A DNA stretch of 32,616 nt from Alphaproteobacteria bacterium UBA2964 (GCA_905182615.1 CAJJCG010000117.1:1-32616), one strand, 5' to 3'; shown: positions 622 through 30,822, counted from the stretch's first letter. The notes: generated by a model from the sequence alone, not told the origin. Made by a program: numbers and translations.

Positions 622-1298
622 CAGATAGCCTCCGTCTTCTCGCCTGGGCGTTCCGCAAGACCAGTGCCGATCATGGAGTTACGAGTGACCAATGCCGCGA
701 GTTGCTCCTCGCTCCAGCCTTCAGTCCCTTCAGGTCGTTCCGGCAGAACGATATAGCGTGTCTCGGCAGTTGAATCCCATACCCGGACTTCTGTCTTATC
801 CGACAGGGTGACGCCAAATTCAGACAGGACCGCGCGTGGCTCCAGCACGGCGCGCGAGCGATAGGGCGCGGATTTGTACCAGGTTGGCGGCAGACCCAGC
901 ACTTCCCACGGATAGCAAGAGCATAAAGTGCAGACGACCATATTATGCCGTTCCGCCGTATTCTCGACTGCAATCAAATGGCTACCGACGGCGCTAACAT
1001 TGCCCATGGTGTTGACCGCCGTGGATGCGTCTTCCAGCAACGCCGCTCGAAACTCCGGATCGGCCCAGGCTCGGGCGACGACACGCTGCCCGTTCTGCGG
1101 CCCGATGCGGGTCTCGTAGGCTTCGACGATGGCATCGAGCGCAGCGGAGTCCACATAGCCTTTCTCCGCCAGCACGGTCTCTAGTGAGCGAACCCGAAGC
1201 TGCGTGTCGGAAAGTTCGGACATTTCCCCATGTTCATGAGAATGGCCGTGAGCGTGCTCATCCGAATGGTCGTGTCCGCGATCTTCGTCGGTGGCCAT
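621..1298 (-). CDS. nthA: Nitrile hydratase alpha subunit, cobalt type
   Basis: This is the catalytic metal-binding subunit (225 residues). The metal-claw motif VCTLCSCYPW lies at 122-131, with ligands Cys123, Cys126, Ser127 and Cys128. Thr in the C-T-L-C-S-C claw is the form of cobalt enzymes; iron enzymes usually carry C-S-L-C-S-C. The following LGLPPxWYKSxxYRxR block (134-149) is also characteristic. The N-terminus is unusual: seven histidines between residues 9 and 23 alternate with acidic residues and glycine, resembling metal-storage tails of nickel and cobalt chaperones. A role in cobalt handling is inference. The gene follows the two dioxygenases by 67 bases on the same strand and is probably the penultimate known gene of the operon that starts with a UbiD decarboxylase. 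Thiocyanate hydrolase gamma is a related alternative but less likely, because a full-length beta follows. Confidence 0.94.
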   Translation of the reverse strand: MATDEDRGHDHSDEHAHGHSHEHGEMSELSDTQLRVRSLETVLAEKGYVDSAALDAIVEAYETRIGPQNGQRVVARAWADPEFRAALLEDASTAVNTMGNVSAVGSHLIAVENTAERHNMVVCTLCSCYPWEVLGLPPTWYKSAPYRSRAVLEPRAVLSEFGVTLSDKTEVRVWDSTAETRYIVLPERPEGTEGWSEEQLAALVTRNSMIGTGLAERPGEKTEAI

Positions 1299-16336: not shown

Positions 16337-17497
16337 ATGGCGGATAAACTAGTTATCAAAAATGTCGGGACGATGCTGTCTGGCGCGCTGGAAGAACCCA
16401 TTCTTGGTGCCGATACCGTCATCATCGAAGGCGATAAAATCACCGCTATCGGCAAAGAAGCCGATCTCGATACCGAGAACGCCGCGACCACAGTTGATGC
16501 CAACCGAACCGTCTTGGCGCCCGGTCTGATTGACAGCCATGTTCACCCTGTCGCCGGTGACTGGACACCACGTCAGAGCCAAATGAACTGGATCGACAGC
16601 TCAATGCATGGCGGCGTGACCACCATGATCTCCGCCGGCGAAGCACATTTCCCCGGCCGTCCCCGTGACCCTAAAGGCGTTGTCGCGCTCGCCATCGCCG
16701 TACAGCGCTCCTTCACCAACTATCCCGGTCAGGTCAAAATGCATGCCGGGGCGCCTATCCTTGAAACGGGTATGGTCGAAGAAGATTTCAAATTCATGGC
16801 TGAAGCCGGTGTCACCCTGCTCGGCGAGATCGGGCTCGGCGGCGTGAAAGCCGGTGCCGAAGCCAAGATTATGGTCGACTGGGCCCGCAAATATGGCATC
16901 CAGAGCACCATCCACACTGGTGGACCGTCGATCCCCGGCTCCGGACTGATCGACAAAGATGTCGTGCTCGAAGCTGGCGCCGATATCATCGGCCATATTA
17001 ATGGCGGGCACACTGCCCTGCCGCTCGATCAGATCCGTTGCCTCTGTGAAGATTGCGGCGCCGGTATTGAAATCGTCCATAATGGCAACGAAAAAGCCGC
17101 GCTCTACGCGATGCGCACGGCCTTTGAGCTTGGCGAGGAAAGCCGGGTTATTCTCGGCACCGACGGTCCCGCAGGCTCTGGCGTTCAGCCGCTCGGCATC
17201 ATTCGAATGGTTGCGATGATGTCCTCGCTCGGCGATGTTGCCCCGGAAACCGTGTTCTGTTTCGCCACTGGCAATACCGCACGCGTCCGCGAACTCGATT
17301 GTGGATTGATCGAAGTTGGCCGCGCCGCCGATCTCGTCTTCATGGATGCGCCGCAGCATTCCGCAGGCAAGACCATGCTCGAAGCTGTCAGCATGGGGGA
17401 TATCCCCGGTATCGGGATGGTCATCATCGATGGCAAAATCGCCAGCGGCCGCAGCCGCAACACCCCACCCGCCGTCAACATACCAGAGGTCGTCTGA
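16337..17497 (+). CDS. ena: Enamidase (1,4,5,6-tetrahydro-6-oxonicotinate hydrolase type)
   Basis: This metal-dependent amidohydrolase of 386 residues closely resembles, from memory, the enamidase of Eubacterium barkeri, which opens 1,4,5,6-tetrahydro-6-oxonicotinate to 2-formylglutarate and ammonia. Shared blocks include HGGVTTMISAG (91-101), HFPGRP (104-109), HTGGPSIPGS (193-202), HINGG (220-224) and SRNTPPA near the end; length also agrees. Metal-ligand candidates are His68, His70, Glu164, His193, His220 and Asp276. TGAGGAGC before the ATG is a good ribosome-binding site. The gene follows the hydrolases and precedes the molybdenum hydroxylase by three bases. Together with hnr it supplies two consecutive steps of reductive nicotinate breakdown. 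A related cyclic enamide is an alternative substrate. Confidence 0.88.
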   Translation: MADKLVIKNVGTMLSGALEEPILGADTVIIEGDKITAIGKEADLDTENAATTVDANRTVLAPGLIDSHVHPVAGDWTPRQSQMNWIDSSMHGGVTTMISAGEAHFPGRPRDPKGVVALAIAVQRSFTNYPGQVKMHAGAPILETGMVEEDFKFMAEAGVTLLGEIGLGGVKAGAEAKIMVDWARKYGIQSTIHTGGPSIPGSGLIDKDVVLEAGADIIGHINGGHTALPLDQIRCLCEDCGAGIEIVHNGNEKAALYAMRTAFELGEESRVILGTDGPAGSGVQPLGIIRMVAMMSSLGDVAPETVFCFATGNTARVRELDCGLIEVGRAADLVFMDAPQHSAGKTMLEAVSMGDIPGIGMVIIDGKIASGRSRNTPPAVNIPEVV

Positions 17498-17500
17498 ACC

Positions 17501-19843
17501 ATGCCTGATACATTAGATATGCCGCTTAATTTCGGGATCGGTCAGCCGGTAACGAGATCCGAAGACCCCCGTCATCTCACCGGTGGTGGCGAGTATACCG
17601 ACGACAGTAATGTAGATGGTCAGGCCTATGCCCGCTACGTGCGCAGCCAAATGGCCCATGGGATTTTAAAATCTGTCGACATCTCCGCTGCCTCGGCGAT
17701 GCCCGGCGTGCTGGCGATTTATACCGGCGCAGATCTGCGAGCTGACGGTATTGGCAATATCCCAAGCGGCCTGCCGCTGAAAAGTCGAGATGGTAGTCCT
17801 TATATTGTACCGCCGCGCACCGGGCTTGCTGTAGACCGGGTGCGTCATGTTGGTGAACCGATCGCAATCGTGATTGCTGAAACGGCTGTTCAGGCACAAG
17901 ACGCTGCCGAAGCGGTGATCGCTGATATTGATATGCTGCCCGTCGTAACGGATTCGGAGGAAGCCGTAAAAGACGGCGCTCCACTTCTACATGACGAAGC
18001 GCCCGGTAATGTGTGTCTCGACTTCTTTGTCGGTGATGACGACGCGATTGAAAAAGCATTTGCCGGCGCCGCGCATGTCACAAAAATGCGGATCGATAAT
18101 ACACGGATCGTCGTCAACGCGATGGAGCCTCGCTCGGTAATTGGTGAATACGACCCCAGCAGCGAGCGGTTCACAGTTCACATGCCCACCCAGGGTGTGA
18201 TGGGCGTCCGTGGCGCCTTATCAAAAGCGATCTTCAAGGTTAAGCCCGAAAAAATCCGCGTCCTGTCCAATGATGTCGGTGGTTCCTTTGGCATGAAAGG
18301 TGCTGCCTTTGTAGAGCCTATCTCGGTTCTCTACGCCGCGCGCAAACTGAGCCGTCCTGTAAAATGGACGGCAGATCGTTCCGAGAGCTTTCTGTCAGAT
18401 CATCAAGGACGTGACAGCATCATCTATGCCGAGCTGGCCCTCAATGCCAGCGGCGACTTCCTCGGTCTCAAAGTAACCGGTGTTGGCAATTGCGGTGCCT
18501 ATCTGACCGCGATGGGCCCCGCCCCGATGACCAATGTCATTTGCCGCAACATTATCAGTGTCTACAAAACACCGGCCTTTTCCTATGCGACCAAAGCCGT
18601 GTTCACCAACACGGTGCCGACTGGCCCCTATCGTGGCGCTGGGCGTCCAGAATCCAAATACATCATGGAGCAGCTGGTCGATAAGGCCGCCCGTGAAATG
18701 GGGGTCGACCGCGTCGAACTACGCCGCCGCAATCTTATCCCACCCGATGCGTTTCCCTATAAAGCGCCGAATGGCCAGACCTATGATAGTGGCGAATTCG
18801 AAGAGATCATGGATGAAACGCTTAAGCGTGCAGACTGGAATGGTTTCGAAGCTCGCAAGACTGCTTCTGCCGCCAACGGTAAGCTCCGTGGTGCCAGCAT
18901 CACCAACTATCTCGAAAATACCGGCGCGGCAGGCGAGCTGGCCGATATCCGCTTCCGCGAAGACGGCTCAGTCGCTCTAGTCACCGGTGCCAAGGATATG
19001 GGCACCAGCCACCGCACACCGTTTGCGCAAATCCTGCACGAACGATTGGGTGTGCCGTATGAAGCCATTGAGGTCATTCAGAATGACTCCGATGAGATGA
19101 GCCCCGGCGCCTCCGGCTCTGGTGGTTCCAAAACGCTACTCGGTGCCGGTAATGCGATCGCCGATTGCGCGGCGATCATTGCCGAAAAAGGCAAAGCCGC
19201 CGCGGGACATATTTTAGAAGCCGCGGCCGAAGACATTGAGTTCGCTAATGGCAACTTCACCGTCGCGGGGACCGACAAGACGATCAATATCATGGACCTC
19301 GCGAAACGCTTGCGCGATTCTGGTGGTTTACCGGAAGGCATCCCCGACAGCCTCGACGATAAAGCAGTTCACGATTCAAGCCCGTCGAGCTTCCCTAATG
19401 GCTGTCACGTCTGTGAAGTTGAAGTCGAACCTGAAACCGGGGTCATTGAGATCGTTAAATATCTCGTGGTCGATGATTTTGGTGTCGTGATCAACCCGCT
19501 GGTCGTCGAAGGCCAGGTTCACGGCGGTATCATGCAGGGCGTCGGCCAAATTCTGGTCGAGCGCACGATCTATGATCATGATGGCCAGCTCGTGACCGGC
19601 TCCTATATGGATTACTGCATGCCACGGGCTGATGATATTTGCGATATCGAGTTCTCAACCCGCAATATTCCCTGCGTGACCAACCCGCTTGGCGTTAAAG
19701 GCTGTGGTGAAGCTGGTAATGGCGGTTCAATGCCAGCGGTGATGAATGCCATCCTGCATGCGCTGGAAGACAAGGGCATTACCGAGCTTGATGCACCAGC
19801 AACACCCCACCGAGTATGGGAAGCGTTACAGAACGCAGGTTAA
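17501..19843 (+). CDS. Xanthine dehydrogenase-family molybdenum hydroxylase, large (Mo-binding) subunit
   Basis: The subunit binds molybdopterin cofactor and hydroxylates a carbon next to a ring nitrogen or an aldehyde. It has 780 residues, the usual length for a separate large subunit. Visible marks are the N-terminal aldehyde-oxidase hammerhead region (about 20-140), GGSFGMKG near residue 262, PTGPYRGAGRPES near 373 and the catalytic Glu737 in GVKGCGEAGNGGSMPAV. It starts three bases after the enamidase stop. Normally an FAD subunit and a [2Fe-2S] subunit are encoded alongside; neither is present in the window, so its electron acceptor is unclear. Given the neighbours, hydroxylation of a nicotinate-like ring before reduction by Hnr is a good guess, but aldehyde or carbon monoxide-dehydrogenase-like enzymes are possible by family alone. 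Confidence 0.9.
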   Translation: MPDTLDMPLNFGIGQPVTRSEDPRHLTGGGEYTDDSNVDGQAYARYVRSQMAHGILKSVDISAASAMPGVLAIYTGADLRADGIGNIPSGLPLKSRDGSPYIVPPRTGLAVDRVRHVGEPIAIVIAETAVQAQDAAEAVIADIDMLPVVTDSEEAVKDGAPLLHDEAPGNVCLDFFVGDDDAIEKAFAGAAHVTKMRIDNTRIVVNAMEPRSVIGEYDPSSERFTVHMPTQGVMGVRGALSKAIFKVKPEKIRVLSNDVGGSFGMKGAAFVEPISVLYAARKLSRPVKWTADRSESFLSDHQGRDSIIYAELALNASGDFLGLKVTGVGNCGAYLTAMGPAPMTNVICRNIISVYKTPAFSYATKAVFTNTVPTGPYRGAGRPESKYIMEQLVDKAAREMGVDRVELRRRNLIPPDAFPYKAPNGQTYDSGEFEEIMDETLKRADWNGFEARKTASAANGKLRGASITNYLENTGAAGELADIRFREDGSVALVTGAKDMGTSHRTPFAQILHERLGVPYEAIEVIQNDSDEMSPGASGSGGSKTLLGAGNAIADCAAIIAEKGKAAAGHILEAAAEDIEFANGNFTVAGTDKTINIMDLAKRLRDSGGLPEGIPDSLDDKAVHDSSPSSFPNGCHVCEVEVEPETGVIEIVKYLVVDDFGVVINPLVVEGQVHGGIMQGVGQILVERTIYDHDGQLVTGSYMDYCMPRADDICDIEFSTRNIPCVTNPLGVKGCGEAGNGGSMPAVMNAILHALEDKGITELDAPATPHRVWEALQNAG

Positions 19844-20100
19844 ACCGATTTTTGGTCCAAAATTTTTAGGCTGACCGAGGGTACAGCAAACATACTCAAA
19901 CAGTCGCGGACCTCTTTCGTCAGCTGGTCGGTCGGCAGATTAGATATATTGCGAACTGTGGTAAGACACAAAGTCTCTTCACCGTCCTGAAACGATTTCA
20001 TCGAAACCTAGACTGGCATTGCCGCACCATCGCTGCGCAGATGAACCCGTTGTAAAATACCGGCCCAGTTTTTCTCAAGCGTTTTCGCTATTGAGACCCC
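19840..20100 (-). pseudogene. Remnant of a PAS-domain protein
   Basis: Read on the minus strand, one frame gives a typical PAS-domain ending: VHLRSDGAAMPV, a TAG stop (20008-20010), then VSMKSFQDGEETLCLTTVRNIS. In intact PAS domains this block reads roughly DGxxxPVEVS...VRDIS, with Glu where the stop stands. The open frame continues to a TAA at 19840-19842 that overlaps the end of the molybdenum hydroxylase gene. No output domain or start is left. It accounts for most of the 332-base gap between genes and looks like a decayed sensor or regulator. Confidence 0.5.
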
Positions 20101-20175
20101 TCCCCCTTCTCTCCCCAAACATCCAGTGCCATAATCCACCCCAACAGCAATTCATGTTTGCCCGGGAGGCACTAA

Positions 20176-20901
20176 ATGTTCTTCGAACCTAAGAATGACG
20201 ATCACGGTTTACCCTATAATCCTTTCAAGGCCTGCGTTGTGCCGCGGCCAATCGGCTGGATCACAACGCTGAGCTATAACGGCGTGGTCAATCTGGCGCC
20301 GTTCTCAATCTCCAATCAGCTCGCCTATGACCCACCGTTTGTATTCTTTTCCGGGTCAGGTGCCATTGATGGCATGGAAGCCGAACCGCGCCGCAAAGAC
20401 TCGGTGGTAAACGCCGAAGACACCGGCGAGTTTGTCTACAACATGGCGACCTATGATCTCCGCAATGAGGTCAATCTGTCGTCAAAGCATGTGCCGCCAG
20501 ATGTCGACGAAATGGAGATGTGTGGGCTGACACCTGCTCCATGCAATCTAGTCAAATGCCCGCGTATTGCCGAAAGCCCAGTCAATCTGGAATGTAAATT
20601 CCATTCAACGATTACCCTGCCATCAAACTCTGCCAAGGGTGTGCATCATGTGGTGATCGGTGAGGTTATAGGTATTCATATCAACGATTCAGCTATATCC
20701 GATGGCAAGGTCGATTGGGTCAAAATTCAGCCGCTCGCCCGCATGGGATATATGGATTACACCTCTGTAACCGAAGTGTTCACCATGCCCGGCCCGAAGG
20801 GGGAAGAATTCCGCCCCGGTCAGGTTGGCGAGCACAGCTCGTCCAAACATTGGGATACCGTCAAAAACGAATGGGAAACCTATAAGGGCAAAGACAAATA
20901 A
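20176..20901 (+). CDS. Flavin reductase-like (FMN-binding split-barrel) protein
   Basis: This 241-residue protein of the DIM6/NTAB flavin reductase-like family shows the N-terminal signature VVPRPIGWITT (21-31) followed by NLAPFSISNQLAYDPP (39-54), which bind FMN in relatives. Members bind FMN tightly or supply reduced flavin to monooxygenases; no partner monooxygenase gene is in the window. A strong ribosome-binding site (GGGAGG) precedes the ATG. It is 332 bases after the molybdenum hydroxylase gene, so it may be in a separate transcript. Oxidoreductase function in the pathway is possible but unproven. Confidence 0.9.
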   Translation: MFFEPKNDDHGLPYNPFKACVVPRPIGWITTLSYNGVVNLAPFSISNQLAYDPPFVFFSGSGAIDGMEAEPRRKDSVVNAEDTGEFVYNMATYDLRNEVNLSSKHVPPDVDEMEMCGLTPAPCNLVKCPRIAESPVNLECKFHSTITLPSNSAKGVHHVVIGEVIGIHINDSAISDGKVDWVKIQPLARMGYMDYTSVTEVFTMPGPKGEEFRPGQVGEHSSSKHWDTVKNEWETYKGKDK

Positions 20902-20905
20902 GCCT

Positions 20906-21553
20906 CTATACCGATCTGTCGCCTTCCAACGCGTAACGCCTTAGTAGACGGCGCTCGTTGAGATCAAAGTCAGTGCGCGCATGCAAAGTGCAGCGATTGT
21001 CCCAGACAAAAAGATCGCCTGGCTGCCAAGTATGGTCGTAGATGTATTCACCCTGCTCGATATGGTCGAACAGATATTCCAGCAGCTCGGTGCTCTCCGC
21101 CGTGTCCATATCAAGGGTGTAATCAGTCATCAGCCGGTTAATGAACAACGATTTGCGACCGGTTTCGGGATGGGTCCGGACAACTGGGTGCACGGCGCTT
21201 GGCGCTCCCTTAGTCCGCTCGGTTGATTTCATATAGCGATTGTTAGACTGGTAATCATAGACATTCAATACCACTCGCCCGACCAACTTTGCCTTAATGT
21301 CGTCCGGCAAATCCTCATACGGTTTGTAGCAATCACAAAACAAGGTCTGTCCACCAACAGACGGCAATTCAATTGCATAAAGGCTCGTCGCGGATACTGG
21401 CAAATCGAAATAGCACTGATCTGAATGGAACCACATCTCACCCCCCAGCAGGATCGCGTTCTCTTTGAAGTTTGACACGAACAGCATCCCGGGTTGCACG
21501 TCTGATTCAGATTCCGGCGCCGTCCGCTCCGCCTGAATTTCACCAACTTGAAT
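20906..21553 (-). pseudogene. TauD/TfdA dioxygenase fragment lacking its N-terminus
   Basis: The fragment is clearly TauD-like: WFHSDQCYF with the iron-binding His and Asp, HPVVRTHPETGRKSLFINR, and WDNRCTLHARTDF with the distal His; it ends RRYALEGD. The normal first 55-60 residues are missing. Its frame is open only back to a TAA at 21554-21556, and the homology seems to begin at VGEIQ just after that stop. A GTG at 21499 or ATG at 21487 could start a short protein, but the fold would lack its first strands. The upstream DNA instead encodes a lipoprotein in another frame. It is probably a dead gene made by a deletion. It is distinct from the two intact dioxygenases at 1366-3080. Confidence 0.75.
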
Positions 21554-21894
21554 TTAGCCACTATTTTTTTCATCGGCTTCGACGTCTTAGCGTGCTTGTT
21601 TGCAGCAGGTATAACCGCCGACATGGCTTTCGCCATTTCACCCTCGGGGACAGCTTCCATTGGTACCGGGGTAATCTGGCGACAGGCAAACCAGTAAGCT
21701 GGTCCACCATCTCGGAGATAGACGGCGTGGCGTAGATACTCACTGCAGCGCCGTTGTGCATAATCTGCGGCCAATTTCGCTGACAGGGCCTCGACAACTA
21801 CTTGATCAGGGTTCGAGATCAGCGCCGTCGCGACAAAACAGCCGCTCAACATCGAAACCAATAATCCGGCAGTTAACATTTTGAATAGTCGCAT
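21265..21894 (-). CDS. Small lipoprotein, C-terminus probably chimeric
   Basis: Residues 1-19 form a lipoprotein signal, with lipobox LSGC and the lipid-bearing Cys19, so the product should be anchored to a membrane. Residues 20 to about 120 look like a real but unrecognised small domain. After about residue 115 (KKIVAKFK) the frame runs through the TauD fragment in the wrong register, giving a Cys- and Arg-rich tail (residues 120-209) that does not look like a real protein. The reading suggests that the 3' end of a lipoprotein gene was lost when it was joined to the middle of a dioxygenase gene near 21540-21556. Function unknown. Confidence 0.55.
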   Translation of the reverse strand: MRLFKMLTAGLLVSMLSGCFVATALISNPDQVVVEALSAKLAADYAQRRCSEYLRHAVYLRDGGPAYWFACRQITPVPMEAVPEGEMAKAMSAVIPAANKHAKTSKPMKKIVAKFKLVKFRRSGRRRNLNQTCNPGCCSCQTSKRTRSCWGVRCGSIQISAISICQYPRRAFMQLNCRLLVDRPCFVIATNRMRICRTTLRQSWSGEWY

Positions 21895-21981
21895 AACACT
21901 GCTTCCCCGCAGTCCCGCAGAAGGTTTTCTGACTAGTCTTCAGCCTGTAGGTAGAAGCGTTGCATTAATTTTGGCTTAACC

Positions 21982-22018
21982 AAAAAAAGAAGGGCGGATC
22001 AATGTGACCCGCCCTTCC
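21982..22018 (-). terminator. Rho-independent terminator of the hnr operon
   Basis: GAAGGGCGG (21989-21997) and CCGCCCTTC (22009-22017) form a perfect 9-base-pair stem; on the minus strand it is followed by seven T residues. It lies 20 bases after the last DUF1185 gene. Confidence 0.9.
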
Positions 22019-22037
22019 TAACATCTATGCAGTGGCG

Positions 22038-22622
22038 TTACCGAAGCCCGTCCTCGCCGACCGCTTCATCGGTGGTTAAACCACCAACACGCGGGAATGG
22101 TCGACCGGAATCCGTAACTGAAACCGCCACCAAAATCTCGTTGGCACGCGGGGCATCCGCCATGCCGACTTCCATGCCGTCAAAATGACTGCGCACATAG
22201 GCGGCATCTTTATGACCGAGCGGCACATCGATACGCGTTCCCTGCCCGCCGAGCTTTTTAACCGACGGCACAAGTGCTGCGCCTTTTTCTACTTCTTTTC
22301 GAAGCGGCGCACCGAGTTTTGGATGCAAAATAGCAGCGGCATGTTCCCACTCGCCGTTCTCACCGACGATCGCAGCCTTGCCATAGCTTTCTGCCTGTTC
22401 GGCCGTGATACCAAGAGCATCAACACACATCTTGCCAAGATAGCCACCGAGTTCCGCGCCAATATCCATAAGCTCGGACAGATCTTCTTCATAACGTCCC
22501 GCAAACGGGTTTTCGATCACCGCTAATGCGGACGCCTTGCGCGTCGCCGGATCGACCGGCCTCCCGATGTCGCTATGGGTTGTTTCAACAATTACCTGAG
22601 TTTTTCTGATCTTGGCCTTCAT
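22038..22622 (-). CDS. DUF1185 (amino acid synthesis family) protein, copy 2
   Basis: This 194-residue protein has no established biochemical function. It shares with copy 1 the blocks NPFAGRY (38-44), YGKAAIVGENGEWEHAA (80-96) and AYVRSHFD (141-148), plus DAPRANEI near 157. As I recall, structures of the family have a chorismate mutase/YjgF-like fold, a fold that also appears in enzymes acting on cyclic amides and imines; a catalytic role is therefore plausible but inferred. The start overlaps the stop of copy 1 by four bases (ATGA), indicating translational coupling, and a terminator follows 20 bases downstream. The family name 'amino acid synthesis' is not supported by anything seen here. 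Confidence 0.88.
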   Translation of the reverse strand: MKAKIRKTQVIVETTHSDIGRPVDPATRKASALAVIENPFAGRYEEDLSELMDIGAELGGYLGKMCVDALGITAEQAESYGKAAIVGENGEWEHAAAILHPKLGAPLRKEVEKGAALVPSVKKLGGQGTRIDVPLGHKDAAYVRSHFDGMEVGMADAPRANEILVAVSVTDSGRPFPRVGGLTTDEAVGEDGLR

Positions 22623-23254
22623 TTAAGTCCATCCTCTCCCTGAATATCAGAAGCTTTTAATCCACCGGCGCGGTCATAGATCCGTGCGCCGGTTGCCATC
22701 GACTGAATCCAAACAATCTCGTCCGCGCGCGGCGCATCCGGAATTGAACATTCAATGCAGTCAAAATGGCTACGAACATAGGCTGCATTTACATGCGCCA
22801 ACGGCACATCAACCGGACGCCCTGGTCCCGCTACTTTCTTGCTCGATGGCACGATGGCTTTTGACGGCTTGATAAGCTGCCGCATACCGTATCCGCCAGG
22901 CTCGTGCCACAGCGCGGCGTGCTCCAACTCTCCATTTTCACCAACAATGGCTGACTTGCCATAAGCGACAATCTTATCCGCGCCACCGAGCGCATCGATT
23001 AATCTTTGTGCCATTGCTGTCCCGAGTGGCTTAAGAGCTTCCATCAACGGCATCAGATTTTCGACATAACGTCCAGCATAGGGATTAGCTGCAACAGCTG
23101 CGATATAGCCCTTCAGCTGCGGCGGGTTTGCAGCTGGCCCGAACTCATGCAGCACTTCCTCAATATGAATGACGAATTTGCGAACCTTTACCAGCTCACC
23201 AAAATCGCCCTGCGGTGCCGTCTGTATGTCTGCAATGTTTCTTGAACCGTCCAT
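22619..23254 (-). CDS. DUF1185 (amino acid synthesis family) protein, copy 1
   Basis: This 211-residue paralogue of the downstream gene shows the shared blocks NPYAGRY (57-63), YGKSAIVGENGELEHAA (98-114) and AYVRSHFD (158-165). It has a longer N-terminus (about 20 extra residues) and an RKFVIHIEEVLHEFG helix. Conserved Glu106, Glu109, Glu111, His112 and the RSHFD segment are candidates for an active site. The pair of divergent copies suggests a hetero-oligomer or two related steps. It follows the UPF0280 gene by 11 bases and has AGAGGA upstream. Co-transcription with hnr points to a job in ring reduction or in the fate of its product; the reaction is unknown. Confidence 0.88.
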   Translation of the reverse strand: MDGSRNIADIQTAPQGDFGELVKVRKFVIHIEEVLHEFGPAANPPQLKGYIAAVAANPYAGRYVENLMPLMEALKPLGTAMAQRLIDALGGADKIVAYGKSAIVGENGELEHAALWHEPGGYGMRQLIKPSKAIVPSSKKVAGPGRPVDVPLAHVNAAYVRSHFDCIECSIPDAPRADEIVWIQSMATGARIYDRAGGLKASDIQGEDGLK

Positions 23255-23265
23255 GGCTTTTTCCT

Positions 23266-24129
23266 CTATGCCGCCTTTGCGATTAGTCCGACAGGCGCCG
23301 TTCCAACCACTCTAAATGTATTTTGTAATACCAGCACTGCGGCTGAGATGTGTCCAGCCTGTTCCGCCACAATCGCGGCTTTCTCACCCGCGTTCAGTGC
23401 TGCATCGATCGTTTGTTGATCCAGCGCTCCGACATCAACAGTGACCAGCCTGTTACCAAGATCACTATCAGGATCCTGCTCAGATGCGGAGATACGTTCT
23501 ATAGCGAGATGATCAGTGTTCACAGCATTGGCGATCAACGTCGCTGCGACATCAGCAGACGCCGTATTGTTCGCCAAAACCGACACGGAGTCCGCAATAC
23601 CAAGCGAAAAACTGCGCCCTTTCCAGCCGCTGGTCGCAATCCCACGTACCGGCATGTCATGCGTTAGGACACATTCACCGTCGATAGTGGGAAGGTGATA
23701 ATCTGCGATTAATCCCGCAGTCAGGCTTTGGCCTTCGGTCAAATGGAACGCGATATCACCGCCATTATTGACAAAAGCCTTTTCAAGTTGCCTGCCGCAA
23801 ACCAATGCCCCTAGCACCTCGTCCGCCACGCCACCGGCGACAGCCGCCATAGGTGTTACAAATTCCGCGCTAAACCGCGAGCAGGCATCCTGCATGCGGC
23901 TTGCAACGGTTCCATCTGGGTGCCAGCTCACATCATAGGACTGACGCAAACTTTCAAGATCACTGACCAGCATTGGCAGAATTTCTGGAAAACAGGACAT
24001 CGCCTGTTCATAGGACTTCTTAACTTCATCCGGATCACCGAAGGCTTCAATGATCAGGTCAATCGGGCCGTGGTTCAGATGCAACCGTCGGCCATCCGGC
24101 AATAACGCCATCTGTGCCAGCGCAAACAT
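23266..24129 (-). CDS. UPF0280 family protein (ApbE-like)
   Basis: This 287-residue protein belongs to a family related to ApbE, the flavin transferase. It shows the ApbE-like blocks PMAAVAGGVADEV (93-105), VNNGGDIA (120-127), RGIATSG (162-168) and LGIADSVSVLA (176-186). It lacks a lipoprotein signal, so it should be cytoplasmic, unlike classical ApbE. The start codon directly follows the hnr stop (TGAATG), and the protein probably works with Hnr. Attaching or handling the flavin of the reductase is an attractive guess from the ApbE relation, but no flavin transferase activity is established for this family as far as I know. Confidence 0.88.
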   Translation of the reverse strand: MFALAQMALLPDGRRLHLNHGPIDLIIEAFGDPDEVKKSYEQAMSCFPEILPMLVSDLESLRQSYDVSWHPDGTVASRMQDACSRFSAEFVTPMAAVAGGVADEVLGALVCGRQLEKAFVNNGGDIAFHLTEGQSLTAGLIADYHLPTIDGECVLTHDMPVRGIATSGWKGRSFSLGIADSVSVLANNTASADVAATLIANAVNTDHLAIERISASEQDPDSDLGNRLVTVDVGALDQQTIDAALNAGEKAAIVAEQAGHISAAVLVLQNTFRVVGTAPVGLIAKAA

Positions 24130-25623
24130 TCAGCTGTCCTGAGCCTCTTCAGTCTGTTTCCCGACATCGAGCGGCCAGGGGTGATCTTCATGCCAAGGCA
24201 CCGAACGAATTTTTTCATTTTCGAGAACATCGTCCAGCGACCGAATCCGGTCCACATAACCGCCAAGCTTTTCATACTCATCAGCGCGGATCGTAAACTC
24301 AATCGGTGCGACCAGTGCCGGGGTCGGCACATAACCAAATGAATTATCAGGCATCTCGTTGACATCCACCAGCAAGGTAATGCCGCCGCCCGGCCATACG
24401 AAAACCGGCGCCCCACCACACGTAACCTGCGTATGTGATTTCTTCACGGAACGCGTCAGTAAAACTGGATTAACTGTCACACCGGCCCGCAGACTGCCAC
24501 CTGCCCCGGCCATAAACATAACGGAGCACAAAGCTGGCTCACAGTTTTCACCAATTCTGTCGACGACGATTTGGATAGGTTCAGGCATATCTTTCTGAAT
24601 TGGCTTCAAATCTTCATCAAGCTCAAAATAGGCTGAATCCTGCCCAGTCGTAGAAACCATCAACAGACGCTGGCCTGCCCAGGCGACATCGGGATCAATC
24701 TTTTCGATAATATCGAGCGGATCGATAATATCGGTACCACCCCAGCCTGCACCGTGATCCGCGACTTGGAAATAGCGACCCGGTGTTGACCGGCGGCCGC
24801 GTACCTTGATGCCCGCTGGCGGCATATCAATAAACTTACCTGCCTGATGTTCGCTCAGGACTGCGGTGATGTGATCATCAACAACAACGACCTCATCAAC
24901 ATGGCTATGCCATTGCGGTGCAAAAATGCCGACAGTGGCAGAACCACAACCAACCCGCATGCGCTCTTCCTGATTGCCATTGATGATTGGTGCTTTACCC
25001 GCCTGAACAACGATTTCGGCTCCGCCATCGATAGTCATCTCAACGGCCTCCTTGTTACACAGCCGCATCATTGTGTTACAGGTGGTATTGCCCTCTTTCT
25101 TACTGCCACCAGTCAAATGGCGAACGCCGCCAATCGCCAGCATCTGCGAGCCATATTCGGCCGTCGTAACATGACCGACCTGCTCACCATTCACCCGAAT
25201 GGCGGCTGGTTCGGGCCCGATATAGGCATCGGTATCAATCTTCACCTTAACGCCGCAATAGCTGAAGACGCCTTCACTGACGACGGTGATCATATCTACC
25301 CCATCCTGATCGCACCCAACGATGAAGGGCGCGGGCTTATAATCAGGGTATGTCGTTGTCGAGCCAATACCGGTCAAAAACGTCGGGGCCTGGCTGACCA
25401 AAGAACCATCCCAGCTCTCCGATGCCTGGGCAAACGGGATCATTTCGCCTTTTTCATCCATGACCTTCTGCGCCACAACGACAGGATCCATCCGGATCAA
25501 CTTGCCATCAAAATTGCCATATCGGTCGCAAGCCCCTGTTTTTCCTTCGCGAATTCGGCAAAGGACCGGGCACGCATCGCATCTGATCAGACCGTCATCT
25601 TTACTTTTAGTTTCATCCGCCAT
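24130..25623 (-). CDS. hnr: 6-hydroxynicotinate reductase
   Basis: Hnr reduces 6-hydroxynicotinate to 1,4,5,6-tetrahydro-6-oxonicotinate with reduced ferredoxin in E. barkeri. This 497-residue protein matches the proteobacterial sequences annotated with that name. The N-terminus carries an iron-sulfur motif: Cys15, Cys18, Cys22 and Cys32 in CDACPVLC...GACDRYGN. Other conserved cysteines lie at 123 (FSYCGVK), 226 (VGCGSAT), 361 and 366 (NCEPALC) and 402 (VTCGGAP). Glycine-rich runs LTGGSKKEG (170-178) and WPGGGIT (410-416) follow. The ATG at 25623 is preceded by GGGGAGAG; a longer frame to 25677 would cross the operator and promoter. It heads a four-gene operon and diverges from korAB, a likely ferredoxin-reducing partner. 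The substrate could be another hydroxylated N-heterocycle. Confidence 0.85.
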   Translation of the reverse strand: MADETKSKDDGLIRCDACPVLCRIREGKTGACDRYGNFDGKLIRMDPVVVAQKVMDEKGEMIPFAQASESWDGSLVSQAPTFLTGIGSTTTYPDYKPAPFIVGCDQDGVDMITVVSEGVFSYCGVKVKIDTDAYIGPEPAAIRVNGEQVGHVTTAEYGSQMLAIGGVRHLTGGSKKEGNTTCNTMMRLCNKEAVEMTIDGGAEIVVQAGKAPIINGNQEERMRVGCGSATVGIFAPQWHSHVDEVVVVDDHITAVLSEHQAGKFIDMPPAGIKVRGRRSTPGRYFQVADHGAGWGGTDIIDPLDIIEKIDPDVAWAGQRLLMVSTTGQDSAYFELDEDLKPIQKDMPEPIQIVVDRIGENCEPALCSVMFMAGAGGSLRAGVTVNPVLLTRSVKKSHTQVTCGGAPVFVWPGGGITLLVDVNEMPDNSFGYVPTPALVAPIEFTIRADEYEKLGGYVDRIRSLDDVLENEKIRSVPWHEDHPWPLDVGKQTEEAQDS

Positions 25624-25662
25624 GGCGCTCTCCCCAGCTAGTCCGCTGCATCTAAATAATTG

Positions 25663-25678
25663 TTTGTGTACATACAAA
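25663..25678. promoter_or_regulatory. MarR-type operator A at the hnr promoter
   Basis: TTTGTGTACATACAAA is an imperfect palindrome with 5-base arms TTTGT and ACAAA. It overlaps the predicted -10 of hnr and recurs at 25833, 30807 and, weakly, 16298. The MarR protein encoded at 30323-30769 is the likely binder. Confidence 0.7.
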
Positions 25679-25705
25679 TATCCGCGAGAGGCTGATTTCT
25701 GTCAA
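25677..25705 (-). promoter_or_regulatory. Predicted hnr promoter
   Basis: On the minus strand TTGACA (25700-25705), 17 bases, then GATATT (25677-25682). The consensus -35 and correct spacing make this convincing; the operator sits on the -10 and start region, consistent with repression. Confidence 0.65.
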
Positions 25706-25787
25706 GGCGGATCAAATGGCGAATAAACACCTCACATTCCTTCACTATTTATTGCCTTTTACAGAATTAAAATAACGCGGGATCCTC

Positions 25788-25815
25788 TTGACAATTACGC
25801 GGCTTATCCGATACT
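25788..25815 (+). promoter_or_regulatory. Predicted korA promoter
   Basis: TTGACA (25788-25793), 16 bases, then GATACT (25810-25815). The -10 resembles those of hnr (GATATT) and marR (GATTAT). Operator B begins 17 bases further downstream, where a bound protein would act near or just after the transcription start. Confidence 0.55.
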
Positions 25816-25832
25816 GGCTACCACTACAATTG

Positions 25833-25848
25833 TTCGTGTACATACAAT
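25833..25848. promoter_or_regulatory. MarR-type operator B at the korA promoter
   Basis: TTCGTGTACATACAAT differs from operator A at only two of 16 positions. It lies between the predicted korA promoter and the korA start codon. Confidence 0.7.
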
Positions 25849-25934
25849 TATTTATTGAGCGTTTTTGTCTTACGAAAGACATATAACTGAACCGAAAATC
25901 TGGCGTTTTTTTGCCAATCAACCTAATCGGAACC

Positions 25935-27800
25935 ATGGCTACACAACTCAAAGAAACCGACGAGAACGGCCGCGAAATTCTGGACTCTGTAGTTATTCGC
26001 TTTGCGGGTGATTCGGGAGATGGAATGCAGCTGACGGGAACACAATTCACCCAGTCAACGGCCCTAATGGGCAATGATCTTTCGACTTTCCCTGATTTCC
26101 CCGCTGAAATTCGCGCCCCGGTCGGAACGACCTATGGCGTCTCAGCCTTCCAGATTAACTTTGCATCACATGCGATTAAGACGCCGGGCGACGCCCCGGA
26201 TGTTCTGGTTGCAATGAACCCTGCTGCCCTCAAGGTCCATTTGAAAGATCTTGTCCCTGGCGGCACGCTGATCCTTAATCTCGGTGCGTTTACTGGGCGC
26301 AATATCGAGAAGGCGGGTTACAAAGAAAGTCCGCTGGAAAACGACACCCTTGATAGTTATCGGGTCATTGAGATCGATATCTCAAAGATGACCTTGGCCG
26401 CTGTTGATCACATCGACGTGACGCAGAAAGAAGCCTTGCGGGCCAAAAATCTGTGGACGCTCGGTCTGATGTGCTGGATGTATGATCGTGATCGTCAGCC
26501 AACCATTGATTGGCTAAATCAGCGCTTTGGTAAATTGCCACTTATCGCGGAAGCTAATATCGCGGCACTCAATGCTGGACACGCTTTTGGCGAAACCGCT
26601 GAACTGCCAAGCGAAATCAGTACTTACGTTGTTCCTAAAGCCAAAGTTGAGCCCGGTATCTACCGCGCTGTCACCGGTGTCGAAACAACTTGCTGGGGTC
26701 TTCTTACCGGTGCCCAAAAAGCAGGCCTGAATATCTTCTTTGGCTCCTACCCGATTACACCAGCCTCACCGCTACTGCATTCTCTGAGCAATCTGAAGGC
26801 CCATGGCGTTGTTACCTTCCAGGCAGAAGATGAAATCTCCGCTGTATGTTCAGCGCTTGGCGCGTCCTTTGCCGGCTCGCTCGGTATTACGTCTAGCTCC
26901 GGCCCGGGTGTTGCCCTTAAATCGGAAGCTCTTGGCCTTGCGGTCGTAACCGAATTACCGCTGATCATTGTAAACTTCCAGCGCGCCGGACCGTCGACTG
27001 GTTTGCCGACCAAAACCGAGCAATCAGATTTGTATCAAGCAGTGTTTGGCCGTAACGGTGACACACCGATGCCGGTTATCGCCGCCTCTACCGCATCAGA
27101 TTGTTATGACTGCGCGATTGAAGCGGTTCGTCTGGCGACCAAATACATGACGCCGGTTATGTATCTCAATGAAGGGTTCCTCGCCAATGCGGCGGAGCCT
27201 TGGAAACTGCCTGACACAGATGATGTTGAGCCGTTCCCTGTCAAGTTTGCTAGCGAGACCGAAGGCTTTCACCCTTATCTCCGGGATGAGAAGACATTGG
27301 CCCGCAACTGGGCCATTCCTGGCACAGAAGGCTTGGAACATCGAATTGGCGGTATCGAGAAAGACTACGATTCAGGCAACATCTCTTATGACTCGGACAA
27401 CCATCACAAGATGACGAAGGTTCGTGCTCAGAAGATCCTCGGCATCGCCGATGATATTCCCGAGCAGGAAGTCGTGTCCGGTAATAATTCGGGCAAAATG
27501 GTGGTCGTCGGTTGGGGTTCAACATTCGGCGCTATCGAACAGGCAACGCGTCGCTGTCAGGAAGACGGTCTGGATGTTTCTCACATTCACATCCGATACA
27601 TCTGGCCGCTGGCGCGTAACCTTGGCGAGCTGTTGAAGGGATTTGATAAAATCCTGGTTCCAGAAATGAATAATGGGCAGCTCGTAACGCTGCTTCGCTC
27701 AGAATATCTAGTACCGGCGGAATCACTCGCCCAGATTACTGGCCAACCTTTCAAGGTAGGCGATCTGGAACGAGAAATTCGCAGCCGAATGGAGGACTAA
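25935..27800 (+). CDS. korA: 2-oxoacid:ferredoxin oxidoreductase, alpha subunit (gamma-alpha fusion)
   Basis: With KorB it oxidatively decarboxylates a 2-oxoacid, probably 2-oxoglutarate, to the acyl-CoA and passes low-potential electrons to ferredoxin. The 621-residue protein has an N-terminal gamma domain (about 17-215, opening VIRFAGDSGDGMQLTG) fused to the alpha domain, whose signature YPITPAS is at 272-278. The ATG at 25935 has CGGA upstream; a TTG 24 bases earlier is unlikely. The stop is three bases before korB. This two-subunit type is known from aerobes with relatively oxygen-tolerant enzymes. The operator shared with hnr suggests that its duty here is to power ring reduction. Substrate preference is inferred from family. 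Confidence 0.92.
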   Translation: MATQLKETDENGREILDSVVIRFAGDSGDGMQLTGTQFTQSTALMGNDLSTFPDFPAEIRAPVGTTYGVSAFQINFASHAIKTPGDAPDVLVAMNPAALKVHLKDLVPGGTLILNLGAFTGRNIEKAGYKESPLENDTLDSYRVIEIDISKMTLAAVDHIDVTQKEALRAKNLWTLGLMCWMYDRDRQPTIDWLNQRFGKLPLIAEANIAALNAGHAFGETAELPSEISTYVVPKAKVEPGIYRAVTGVETTCWGLLTGAQKAGLNIFFGSYPITPASPLLHSLSNLKAHGVVTFQAEDEISAVCSALGASFAGSLGITSSSGPGVALKSEALGLAVVTELPLIIVNFQRAGPSTGLPTKTEQSDLYQAVFGRNGDTPMPVIAASTASDCYDCAIEAVRLATKYMTPVMYLNEGFLANAAEPWKLPDTDDVEPFPVKFASETEGFHPYLRDEKTLARNWAIPGTEGLEHRIGGIEKDYDSGNISYDSDNHHKMTKVRAQKILGIADDIPEQEVVSGNNSGKMVVVGWGSTFGAIEQATRRCQEDGLDVSHIHIRYIWPLARNLGELLKGFDKILVPEMNNGQLVTLLRSEYLVPAESLAQITGQPFKVGDLEREIRSRMED

Positions 27801-27803
27801 TCG

Positions 27804-28829
27804 ATGAACGTTCAAAGCCCCCCAGAAGCTCTTAAGCCCAACGATTACGCTTCCGATCAGGAAGTACGCTGGTGCCCCGGCTGTGGTGACTATGCAATCG
27901 TTAAGGCAGTGCAGAAGGCCCTGGCAAATATGGGGGCCGATCCCAAGAACACGGTCTTTGTGTCCGGTATCGGTTGCGCAGCCCGCTTCCCCTACTACAT
28001 GGCAACATACGGTTTCCACACGATCCATGGTCGTGCACCGGCCGTTGCCACAGGCGTAAAGCTGGCAAACCCCGGACTCGACGTCTGGGTCATCGGTGGT
28101 GACGGCGACATGCTCAGCATCGGCGGTAATCACACGCTGCATGTTCTACGACGCAACATCGATGTTCAGGTCCTCCTATTCAACAATGAGATCTATGGCC
28201 TGACCAAAGGTCAGTACTCTCCGACATCGAAAGTCGGCACGCGCTCACCCTCGACGCCAGCTGGTTCTGTCGACTCACCAGTTTCGGCCTGTGTCTTTGC
28301 ACTTGGCTGTAATGCACGGTTCGTCGCCCGTTCGGTTGATACAAATTTGAAGGTTCTTCCTGGCCTAATGCAGGAAGCCAAAGAGAATACTGGCGCTTCA
28401 TTCGTCGAAATTTTACAGAACTGCATTGTTTATAACGATGGCGTCTATTCATCGTTCACCGACAAGGCAAATATCGCAGACGGCCAGGTCGTTTGCGAAC
28501 ATGGCAAGCCATTACTGTACGGCAAAGACAAAGAAAAAGGCCTGCGCATGACGCCAGGCAAGATGGAACTGGAAGTTGTGACTATCGGTGAAAATGGTGT
28601 CACCGAAGCCGACATTCTGCTCCATGATGAAACCAACCGCCCGCTGGCTTTAATGCTCGCCAGCATGCAGCCACCAAATTTCCCGGTTGCAATGGGCGTT
28701 ATCTTCCGTGACCCCGGCCTTTCTTACGATGCTGCGGTTTATGAACAGATTGCCGAAGTAACCGAGAAATCACCGGCAATTCCGATCAATGAGCTGATGC
28801 ATAAGGGAAAGACCTGGACCGTCGTCTGA
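27804..28829 (+). CDS. korB: 2-oxoacid:ferredoxin oxidoreductase, beta subunit
   Basis: This catalytic subunit of 341 residues binds thiamine diphosphate and a [4Fe-4S] cluster. Cluster cysteines include Cys24 and Cys27 in RWCPGCGDY and Cys58 in GIGCAARF; the fourth is probably in the QNCIVYN block near residue 210. The thiamine diphosphate motif runs from GGDGDMLSIGGNH (98-110) to NNEIYGLTKGQ (127-137). No ferredoxin domain is attached, so an external ferredoxin is needed; none is encoded in the window. A strong terminator follows 17 bases after the stop, so korA-korB is a two-gene transcript. Confidence 0.94.
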   Translation: MNVQSPPEALKPNDYASDQEVRWCPGCGDYAIVKAVQKALANMGADPKNTVFVSGIGCAARFPYYMATYGFHTIHGRAPAVATGVKLANPGLDVWVIGGDGDMLSIGGNHTLHVLRRNIDVQVLLFNNEIYGLTKGQYSPTSKVGTRSPSTPAGSVDSPVSACVFALGCNARFVARSVDTNLKVLPGLMQEAKENTGASFVEILQNCIVYNDGVYSSFTDKANIADGQVVCEHGKPLLYGKDKEKGLRMTPGKMELEVVTIGENGVTEADILLHDETNRPLALMLASMQPPNFPVAMGVIFRDPGLSYDAAVYEQIAEVTEKSPAIPINELMHKGKTWTVV

Positions 28830-28846
28830 TTCTTTCGTTTCATATT

Positions 28847-28887
28847 ACAAAAAGCCCCGGCAAATCCGTATTTCCGGGGCTTTTTGT
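28847..28887 (+). terminator. Rho-independent terminator after korB
   Basis: Perfect 14-base arms (28847-28860 and 28874-28887) enclose a 13-base loop. The GC-rich core GCCCCGG is flanked by A5 and T5 runs, so it could act on both strands, but only the plus strand has a gene ending here. Confidence 0.93.
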
Positions 28888-28981
28888 TGTGGAAAACTAT
28901 AACCGCAGGGGTTTCCTCAGCACACGGTTCGGCTATCATAACCAGCAGTTTTGGGCTTAATAATAAAATTCGGATTTGAGA

Positions 28982-30307
28982 ATGAGTGAGTTCAGTGACC
29001 GCAGTGTCGCCATCGTCGGTTCCGGTCCCGGCGGTATGTATGTCGCACAGGCATTGTTGGAGAAGGCACCTGGGTGCCGCATCGATATCATCGACCGATT
29101 GCCGTCCCCTTTCGGACTGATCAGAGGTGGCGTCGCCCCCGATCACCAGAAAACCAAACGGGTCGACCAGAAATACGCCCAAAGCATCACTGAGAACGAC
29201 AATGTACGATATGTCGGCAATATTTCGCTGGGTCGCGATGTCAGCCTCGACGAGCTTACCGCTATTTATGATGCCGTGGTCCTTGCCTATGGCGCGCCTT
29301 ACGACAATAAGCTCGGTATTCCCGGCGAAGATAAAAAGGGCGTCTTTGGCTCCAACGCTTTTGTCGGCTGGTATAACTGTCATCCGGACTTTAAAGACCT
29401 TGGGCCCAATCTTAACATTGGTACTGCCGCCGTCATCGGCATCGGCAATGTTGCGATCGACGTCGCGCGCGTTCTCGCTCGGACACCAGCTGAGATGTCG
29501 ACCACAGACATTGCGGATTATGCGATGGAGGACATTGATGCGGCATCGCTCAAAGACGTTTACATGTTTGCCCGCCGTGGTCCTCTAGAAGCGGCCTGCA
29601 CCAATAACGAGCTCAAGGAAATGGGTGTGCTCGAAGCCGCAACGACCGTCGTCGATGCTGCTTTATTACCGGATGAGATGCCGGAAGATATGGACGACCG
29701 GGAAAAGAAAGTGCGGACCCGCATTGTCGATACACTGAAAGTACTTTCCACGGCCAAAGCCGACGAGAAACGCCGCACGGTGCATATCGAGTTTTACGCA
29801 TCACCGATCGAGATTCTTGGCGGTGATACTGTTGAAGGCATTCGCATGGAACGGACCAAGGTCGAAGGTGGCCGCTGCATTGGCACCGGTGAAACTTTTG
29901 ACATTCCGTGCGAAATGGTCGTCACCTGTATTGGTTCACGTGCCGAAGCCATCGAAGGAATCCCCTTTAATGCGCATAGCGGCATCGTCGAGCAAGAGGA
30001 AGGTCGCGTGGCGCCAGGCGTTTATGCCGCCGGTTGGGTGAAGCGTGGTGCCACCGGCACCATCGGCACCAATCGGCTGGACTCCTATGGCGTAACAGAC
30101 CTTCTTGTCGCCGACTTCAATGGTGAGACAAAGCCCGGTCCCGGTGCTCTCGATACGCTCACCAAAGAACGTAATCTTCAGGCAATCTCGTTCGATGATT
30201 GGTTGGTGATCAAAGAGCTGGAAGAAAAAGCAGCCCCCGAACAAGCGCCCCGCAAAAAGTTCAGTACTGTCGAAGGCATGATCGAAGGGCTGAACGCCAC
30301 GCGTTAA
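28982..30307 (+). CDS. Ferredoxin-NADP reductase, adrenodoxin reductase/FprA type
   Basis: This FAD enzyme of 441 residues moves electrons between NADPH and ferredoxin. It has the FAD site GSGPGG (13-18), the family block PSPFGLIRGGVAPDHQ (41-56), the NADP site GIGNVAIDVAR (153-163) and the C-terminal AGWVKRGATGTIGTN segment. I chose the ATG at 28982; a TTG two codons earlier is less likely. It follows the korB terminator by about 95 bases, so it has its own promoter. Beside korAB and hnr, it could top up reduced ferredoxin from NADPH or drain excess electrons from KorAB to NADP. No copy of the MarR operator was found before it. Confidence 0.92.
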   Translation: MSEFSDRSVAIVGSGPGGMYVAQALLEKAPGCRIDIIDRLPSPFGLIRGGVAPDHQKTKRVDQKYAQSITENDNVRYVGNISLGRDVSLDELTAIYDAVVLAYGAPYDNKLGIPGEDKKGVFGSNAFVGWYNCHPDFKDLGPNLNIGTAAVIGIGNVAIDVARVLARTPAEMSTTDIADYAMEDIDAASLKDVYMFARRGPLEAACTNNELKEMGVLEAATTVVDAALLPDEMPEDMDDREKKVRTRIVDTLKVLSTAKADEKRRTVHIEFYASPIEILGGDTVEGIRMERTKVEGGRCIGTGETFDIPCEMVVTCIGSRAEAIEGIPFNAHSGIVEQEEGRVAPGVYAAGWVKRGATGTIGTNRLDSYGVTDLLVADFNGETKPGPGALDTLTKERNLQAISFDDWLVIKELEEKAAPEQAPRKKFSTVEGMIEGLNATR

Positions 30308-30322
30308 GACAGTACGCCGGCC

Positions 30323-30769
30323 CTACTCGCTATGACCGTTAAGTTGCGCCAGCTTTGCCAGCAAATCCAAAAATGTTTTCTGTTCTGCCGCGCTGAGCGG
30401 CTGAAGCGTCTGCGCTGTAATACCGCTACCATTGCTGACCAGGGCTTCAACCAAGCTCGATCCTTTTTCACTCAAACTCAAAATTAGTCGCCGACGATCA
30501 TTGGGATCAGGGCGCCGCTCGATCAAGCCACGTGATGCAAGCCGTTTAATCACTCCCTGCATAGTCGCCGCATCCATAGCCGTTAACCGGCCAAGATGGT
30601 TTTGCGATACTTCTTTGAGATCTCGAAGCTTGACCAGTACTGCAAATTGCAACGGTGTCAGCTGCGCGTCGCCGATATTTTCCTGAAAAATAGCCGAATG
30701 ACGCTGATGCGCCCGGCGCAATAAATGCCCCGCCTGACGTTCCAGAATATAGCTATCTTTCGCTGTCAT
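30323..30769 (-). CDS. MarR-family transcriptional regulator
   Basis: This 148-residue winged-helix regulator has the recognition region VSQNHLGRLTAMDAATMQGVI (about 53-73) and the wing DPNDRRRLILSLSEKG (88-103 region), the typical MarR pattern DxRxxxxxLTxxG. I chose the ATG at 30769 (MTAKDSYILERQ), preceded by GGGG; the longer frame to 30874 would cross the gene's own promoter. An operator-like sequence overlaps its -10, so it is probably autoregulated. Identical motifs at hnr and korA suggest it represses those units until an inducer, perhaps a ring acid, is bound. It is convergent with the preceding reductase gene, with 15 bases between stops. Confidence 0.93.
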   Translation of the reverse strand: MTAKDSYILERQAGHLLRRAHQRHSAIFQENIGDAQLTPLQFAVLVKLRDLKEVSQNHLGRLTAMDAATMQGVIKRLASRGLIERRPDPNDRRRLILSLSEKGSSLVEALVSNGSGITAQTLQPLSAAEQKTFLDLLAKLAQLNGHSE

Positions 30770-30806
30770 ACCCCGTGGAACCCTGATGAGATTGTTGAAA
30801 TACTTG

Positions 30807-30822
30807 TTTGTGTACGAATAAT
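30807..30822. promoter_or_regulatory. MarR-type operator C at the marR promoter
   Basis: TTTGTGTAC is identical to the left part of operator A; the right half (GAATAAT) is degenerate. It overlaps the predicted -10 of marR in the same way that operator A overlaps that of hnr. Confidence 0.6.

Follow-up and report, generated by a model that had tools for sequence, protein, structure and literature searches.

We propose that the locus described here belongs to a regulon that responds to 6-hydroxynicotinate and serves to break down the nicotinate ring reductively, in which 6-hydroxynicotinate reductase (Hnr) would be fed with electrons by KorAB and flavinylated by UPF0280; we put the probability of this reading, which is drawn from sequence comparisons, at roughly two in three. 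In the proposed mechanism, an NdhF-NdhSL enzyme encoded elsewhere in the genome would hydroxylate nicotinate to 6-hydroxynicotinate, which would free a BpsR-like MarR repressor from the operators of hnr, korA and marR. KorAB would convert 2-oxoglutarate to succinyl-CoA with the reduction of ferredoxin, possibly assisted by FprA with NADPH, and the reduced ferredoxin would feed Hnr, which would reduce the ring to tetrahydro-6-oxonicotinate for subsequent opening by the enamidase. UPF0280 would attach the covalent flavin to Hnr, and KorAB would be an older resident enzyme, drawn into the regulon several times in the Alphaproteobacteria. The pathway itself is known; the predicted novelty lies in the electron-supply link through korAB and in UPF0280 as a maturation partner. 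The more demanding claim, that resident KorAB was repeatedly put under a 6-hydroxynicotinate-sensing repressor to power ring reduction and that UPF0280 is an ApbE-like transferase solely for Hnr, we regard as an even bet.

Gene content of the locus and its host

The window, i.e. the whole stretch of 32,616 nucleotides that was analysed, is contig 117 of a metagenome-assembled genome (2.45 Mb, 72.7% complete), the nearest named relatives of which are uncultured Alphaproteobacteria and 'Rhodospirillaceae' metagenome-assembled genomes. Class membership and the presence of SucA in this genome suggest that the host is probably oxygen-respiring. The gene order is ena, xdhL and a flavin reductase gene on the plus strand, two AA_synth genes, UPF0280 and hnr on the minus strand, korA, korB and fprA on the plus strand and marR on the minus strand (Table 1). 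The sequence-only reading had assigned four gene types to positions 16337-30307 (ena, Hnr, KorAB and an FprA-type reductase), all of which are present by homology matches. Its description of them as a single locus holds in that the four types occur together, with the qualification that ena and hnr are about 6.6 kb apart, separated by other genes (the XdhL-type gene, the flavin reductase gene, a shortened TauD gene, the two AA_synth genes and UPF0280); UPF0280, MarR and the marR operator had escaped it.

Table 1. Features of the locus, with positions counted from the first nucleotide of the window.
Feature	Position	Strand	Basis or remark
ena, predicted enamidase (binuclear-metal amidohydrolase, would open the reduced ring)	16337..17497	+	Pfam Amidohydro_1; 2vun
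XdhL/CoxL-type molybdopterin subunit	17501..19843	+	Pfam MoCoBD_1/2
AA_synth (PF06684) protein 1	22038..22622	-	recurrent in hnr clusters
AA_synth (PF06684) protein 2	22619..23254	-	recurrent in hnr clusters
UPF0280 family, distant ApbE relative	23266..24129	-	NF003322 above cut-off
hnr, predicted 6-hydroxynicotinate reductase	24130..25623	-	annotated homologues
hnr operator, palindrome TTGTTTGTGTACATACAA	25660..25677	-	directly downstream of hnr -10
hnr promoter-like TTGACA-17-GATATT	25677..25705	-	kept in relatives
korA promoter-like TTGACA-16-GATACT	25788..25815	+	kept in relatives
korA operator, palindrome TTGTTCGTGTACATACAA	25830..25847	+	kept in relatives
korA, 2-oxoacid:ferredoxin oxidoreductase alpha (fused gamma-alpha)	25935..27800	+	TIGR03710, 6n2n
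korB, 2-oxoacid:ferredoxin oxidoreductase beta	27804..28829	+	TPP_enzyme_C; TIGR02177
fprA, adrenodoxin-reductase-type NADPH-ferredoxin reductase	28976..30307	+	1cjc E 2.7e-81; 1lqt FprA E 1.4e-78
marR, BpsR-like regulator	30323..30769	-	6pcp E 1.2e-27
marR operator-like site TTATTCGTACACAAACAA, weaker copy	30804..30821	-	25.8 bits; after TTGACA box

The predicted enamidase matches the Eubacterium barkeri enamidase (2vun) with E 3e-108 over residues 4-382. Hnr is 61.6% identical to records annotated as 6-hydroxynicotinate reductase and comprises 497 aa from its ATG, in an ORF that is open up to 25677. For hnr and korA the listed TTG starts are placed too far upstream; with the ATG codons at 25623 (minus strand) and 25935 (plus strand), the hnr operator falls outside the coding sequence. 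The predicted structure of Hnr had a pLDDT of 31, too low for use. KorA scores 619 bits against TIGR03710 (cut-off 482.75) and has the 2-oxoacid oxidoreductase 6n2n as its nearest structure (E 5.8e-68), and KorB reaches 242.6 bits with TIGR02177, just below the cut-off of 261.9. By family, KorAB is a candidate 2-oxoglutarate:ferredoxin oxidoreductase, its use of 2-oxoglutarate being predicted from sequence class alone. A dedicated ferredoxin gene was not found in the cluster; small ferredoxins are encoded elsewhere.

Hnr and enamidase act consecutively in the reductive nicotinate pathway of E. barkeri, reportedly described by Alhapel et al. in 2006; the likeness to the present system lies in this pair of enzymes and in the ferredoxin-dependent reduction of 6-hydroxynicotinate, which is predicted for the window. 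E. barkeri is a strict anaerobe, whereas the host of the window is probably aerobic. The E. barkeri Hnr is reported to carry a covalently bound flavin, a further likeness to the Hnr predicted here. It reportedly has three clusters, whereas the eight invariant cysteines of the alphaproteobacterial Hnr proteins, including CxxCxxxCx9C at positions 33-50 of the long ORF, would be enough for two [4Fe-4S] clusters. We know of no co-regulation of KorAB and Hnr in the E. barkeri system. Reductive nicotinate breakdown has already been reported in aerobes, in Azorhizobium caulinodans and Bradyrhizobiaceae, where hnr is clustered with ndh genes, an ABC transporter and a pair of conserved genes with no assigned function (PMC3511419). 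The description of those clusters does not mention a ferredoxin-reducing module, whereas the window contains korAB-fprA; it also encodes an enamidase and, in place of the ABC transporter, one of the TctA/TctB type, and its ndh genes lie elsewhere. In other hnr clusters, HyuA/HyuB pairs resembling hydantoinase or acetophenone carboxylase adjoin hnr (L041:11676-15464, L230:12068-15903, L231:4759-8558), and could perhaps open the lactam in an ATP-dependent reaction where enamidase is not used.

Several further genes were observed around the cluster. The TauD-family gene (20906-21499) encodes 197 aa compared with 274-282 aa in relatives, is apparently truncated and adjoins a lipoprotein-like ORF. 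A nitrile hydratase alpha subunit is encoded at the edge of the window (621-1298), and since the beta subunit adjoins the alpha subunit in a relative (L099:2684-4005), a complete nitrile hydratase appears to border the cluster. XdhL/CoxL-type molybdopterin enzymes, counted in genomes G000, G300, G378, G210 and G104, are very numerous: the window genome, at 72.7% completeness, has 28 matches and G300, a relative of 4.1 Mb, has 39.

Operators, regulator and ring substrate

The operator motifs that the sequence-only reading had reported as shared between hnr and korA are two 18-bp palindromes, both kept in 12 relatives while the intervening sequence diverges. The operator pattern has four matches in the window compared with 0.11 expected, and none of 100 shuffles reproduced this. 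A weight matrix trained on operator sites that accompany ndh-hnr clusters outside the window's family gave 24-26 bits for the window sites and 9.4 for the next best non-overlapping site; since the training sites were chosen by a pattern derived from the window, these scores are partly circular, whereas the comparison of korA upstream regions given below is not. A sigma-70-like promoter immediately precedes each of the two operators, an arrangement in keeping with repression. Genome-wide, about one further operator site per genome was found in the window's family. In other families the operator stands after marR and before ndh, and a search around the marR starts found none there. Within the window's genus the operator also occurs in a divergon of UbiD and cupin genes, and in a sister genus it stands, by inspection, in front of etfBA (L139:1946, L140:9407, L141:9652, L142:9200; L143:9469), which indicates a regulon wider than hnr and korA.

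The structures nearest to the window MarR are a Pseudomonas aeruginosa regulator (2nnn) and Bordetella BpsR. BpsR is freed from DNA by 6-hydroxynicotinic acid, which it contacts through Tyr15, His23, Arg26 and His32 (PMC6837509; 6pcp/6pco). The window MarR shares the sequence family and all four contact residues, as Y42, H50, R53 and H59 (long-ORF numbering); in the MarRs of other hnr clusters the two His positions are variable, and the Tyr and the Arg are present in all or nearly all cases. The targets of BpsR in Bordetella include virulence and nicotinic acid metabolism, whereas the window MarR adjoins hnr and korAB. The retention of the four residues is the best evidence for the substrate and makes 6-hydroxynicotinate the likely ring; we consider it probable that this is the compound reduced by Hnr, and the analysis thereby offers a predicted inducer for the regulator.

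The same electron logic could serve another hydroxylated N-heterocycle, supplied by UbiD, TauD, nitrile hydratase, XdhL or isochorismatase-type enzymes. The window has no ndhFSL genes beside hnr; its XdhL subunit is unusual, it also encodes UbiD decarboxylases and the nitrile hydratase alpha subunit, and the presence of the same operator in the UbiD/cupin divergon elsewhere is in keeping with such a ring. We nevertheless find this reading doubtful, as the MarR retains the complete set of BpsR contacts, Hnr is 59-71% identical to the Hnr of canonical ndh-hnr clusters, and each family genome has one candidate ndhF-ndhSL pair, on another contig, that is 54-58% identical to the pair in an hnr operon. 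In the window genome this pair is 57% identical to that of the hnr operon of family f68 and has no operator adjoining it. XdhL itself is an unlikely nicotinate dehydrogenase: 2Fe-2S or FAD small subunits were found adjoining it neither in the window nor in relatives, and the ndhFSL genes elsewhere are the better candidate.

Linkage of KorAB to Hnr

In a class sample of 385 genomes, taken from a set that consists partly of draft metagenome-assembled genomes, Hnr was found in 68 and KorA in 91. The co-occurrence of hnr and korAB, which had been suggested as a check on the sequence-only reading, is above expectation: 32 of the 385 genomes have both, where about 16 would be anticipated, and the odds ratio is 3.9 (p 3e-6, ignoring relatedness). 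KorA is single-copy, and 59 of its 91 carriers are without Hnr. The regulatory evidence is more specific: scanning of the 600 bp in front of korA with the weight matrix detected the operator in 9/30 KorA genomes with Hnr versus 0/52 without (p 5e-5), a count that is the same at cut-offs of 15 and 18 bits and becomes 10/30 at 12 bits. With the window's family left out, the comparison is 5/26 versus 0/52 (p 0.003). The families with a korA operator are f1, f2, f42, f83, f88 and f148, in five of which korA and hnr are far apart. In genome G370 the korA site is the sole close operator match in 5.6 Mb. Family f68 shows the link in another form, as genome G281 carries korA-korB-fprA-ndhF-ndhSL-hnr-UPF0280-hyuA-hyuB consecutively on one strand, and this linkage of korAB-fprA to ndh-hnr recurs in G187, a genome from that genus. 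A link of korAB to hnr, by operator or operon, is thus found in seven families in total.

Were korAB a housekeeping neighbour that stands beside hnr by chance, with the shared motif reflecting a promiscuous MarR, a single-copy KorA widespread in the class would be expected, as is found. The korA operators in five further families with korA far from hnr, their absence from all 52 genomes without Hnr, the same-operon linkage in f68 and the very small number of operator sites per genome in the window's family make this explanation highly improbable.

On the KorA tree the linked copies are scattered, with seven changes, at least four of which are forced by well supported branches, in families that also have unlinked copies. 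Such scatter suggests that a gene already resident in these genomes was recruited more than once. An independent-pairs test on the same tree, of low power with only five supported pairs, gave the same direction in 0-3 and the opposite direction never. KorAB as an hnr-specific paralogue is ruled out, as KorA is single-copy and, on the tree, its linked and unlinked copies share families. The earlier claim of a dedicated oxidoreductase is accordingly upheld in one respect, the recurrent placing of hnr and korAB under one operator type, and is qualified in the other, since the many KorA carriers without Hnr speak against specificity by descent.

An operator at korA was not detectable in 21 of the 30 Hnr+KorA+ genomes tested, and 36 of the 68 Hnr+ genomes are without a close KorA; KorAB is therefore not generally required for Hnr, and another electron donor is needed in those 36. 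On a Sulfitobacter plasmid, a plant-type ferredoxin-NADP reductase gene heads the hnr gene row with the operator in front, and this equivalent position suggests that ferredoxin is what both arrangements require. A strict alternation of this reductase with KorAB was rejected, since it is nearby in only 3 of 60 loci, all of them KorA-, which is not significant. KorAB, or ferredoxin-NADP reductase in other lineages, would provide a concrete candidate donor of low-potential electrons for ring reduction in aerobes with the Azorhizobium-type nicotinate pathway.

Induction of KorAB-FprA together with hnr could instead serve carbon flow or NADPH, with FprA passing electrons to NADP+ and Hnr drawing on the general ferredoxin pool. 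FprA may work in either direction, as adrenodoxin-type reductases can run both ways, and in 23 of 36 sampled korA loci, mostly without hnr, fprA is no more than about 6 kb away from korAB. The nicotinate pathway also ends in central metabolites (PMC3511419). This explanation is unlikely, however, as the window genome encodes SucA and would need no induction of KorAB for 2-oxoglutarate oxidation, and as Sulfitobacter has its ferredoxin-NADP reductase in the corresponding place. The presence of SucA also rules out KorAB as the sole 2-oxoglutarate dehydrogenase of the window genome. In Mycobacterium tuberculosis, KorAB is an aerotolerant 2-oxoglutarate:ferredoxin oxidoreductase (PMC2773412), and the likeness lies in an anaerobe-type KorAB in an aerobe; there it serves a TCA cycle without measurable KG dehydrogenase activity, whereas in the window genome SucA is present and korAB appears to be wired to ring reduction. 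Genome G001 (98% complete; L105, G001:C93) has KorAB with an operator and no SucA match, and the TCA step may there fall to KorAB as well.

UPF0280 as a candidate flavin transferase

UPF0280 and Hnr occur in an identical set of 68 of the 385 class genomes, and in a phylum-wide sample hnr was immediately upstream of UPF0280 in 30 of 30 fetched loci. UPF0280 has no Pfam family match, including ApbE (PF02424), and was not mentioned in the literature searched. Its profile matches the DUF375 protein 2o34 (E 6e-12), and its alignment with ApbE by hhalign (probability 87.7%, E 3.4e-6) spans the NGGD, ATSG and AD..AT motifs. A Foldseek search with the structural model (mean pLDDT 68) retrieved 2o34 first, then FmnB (E 4.6e-4), Ftp (4.7e-3) and ApbE. 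UPF0280 thus has these motifs and fold matches in common with the FMN transferases ApbE, Ftp and FmnB and with 2o34; it differs from the ApbE family in being separate, without a Pfam ApbE match, and in being confined, among the sampled genomes, to those that have Hnr. Given the distant likeness to ApbE, UPF0280 probably acts as the flavin transferase in Hnr maturation, a predicted function for an uncharacterised family that co-occurs perfectly with Hnr in the sampled class. If true, this would explain how Hnr could acquire a covalent flavin in the window's family, in the five genomes of which a canonical ApbE was not found. The pair of PF06684 'AA_synth' proteins (22038-23254) repeatedly adjoins UPF0280, in many hnr clusters.
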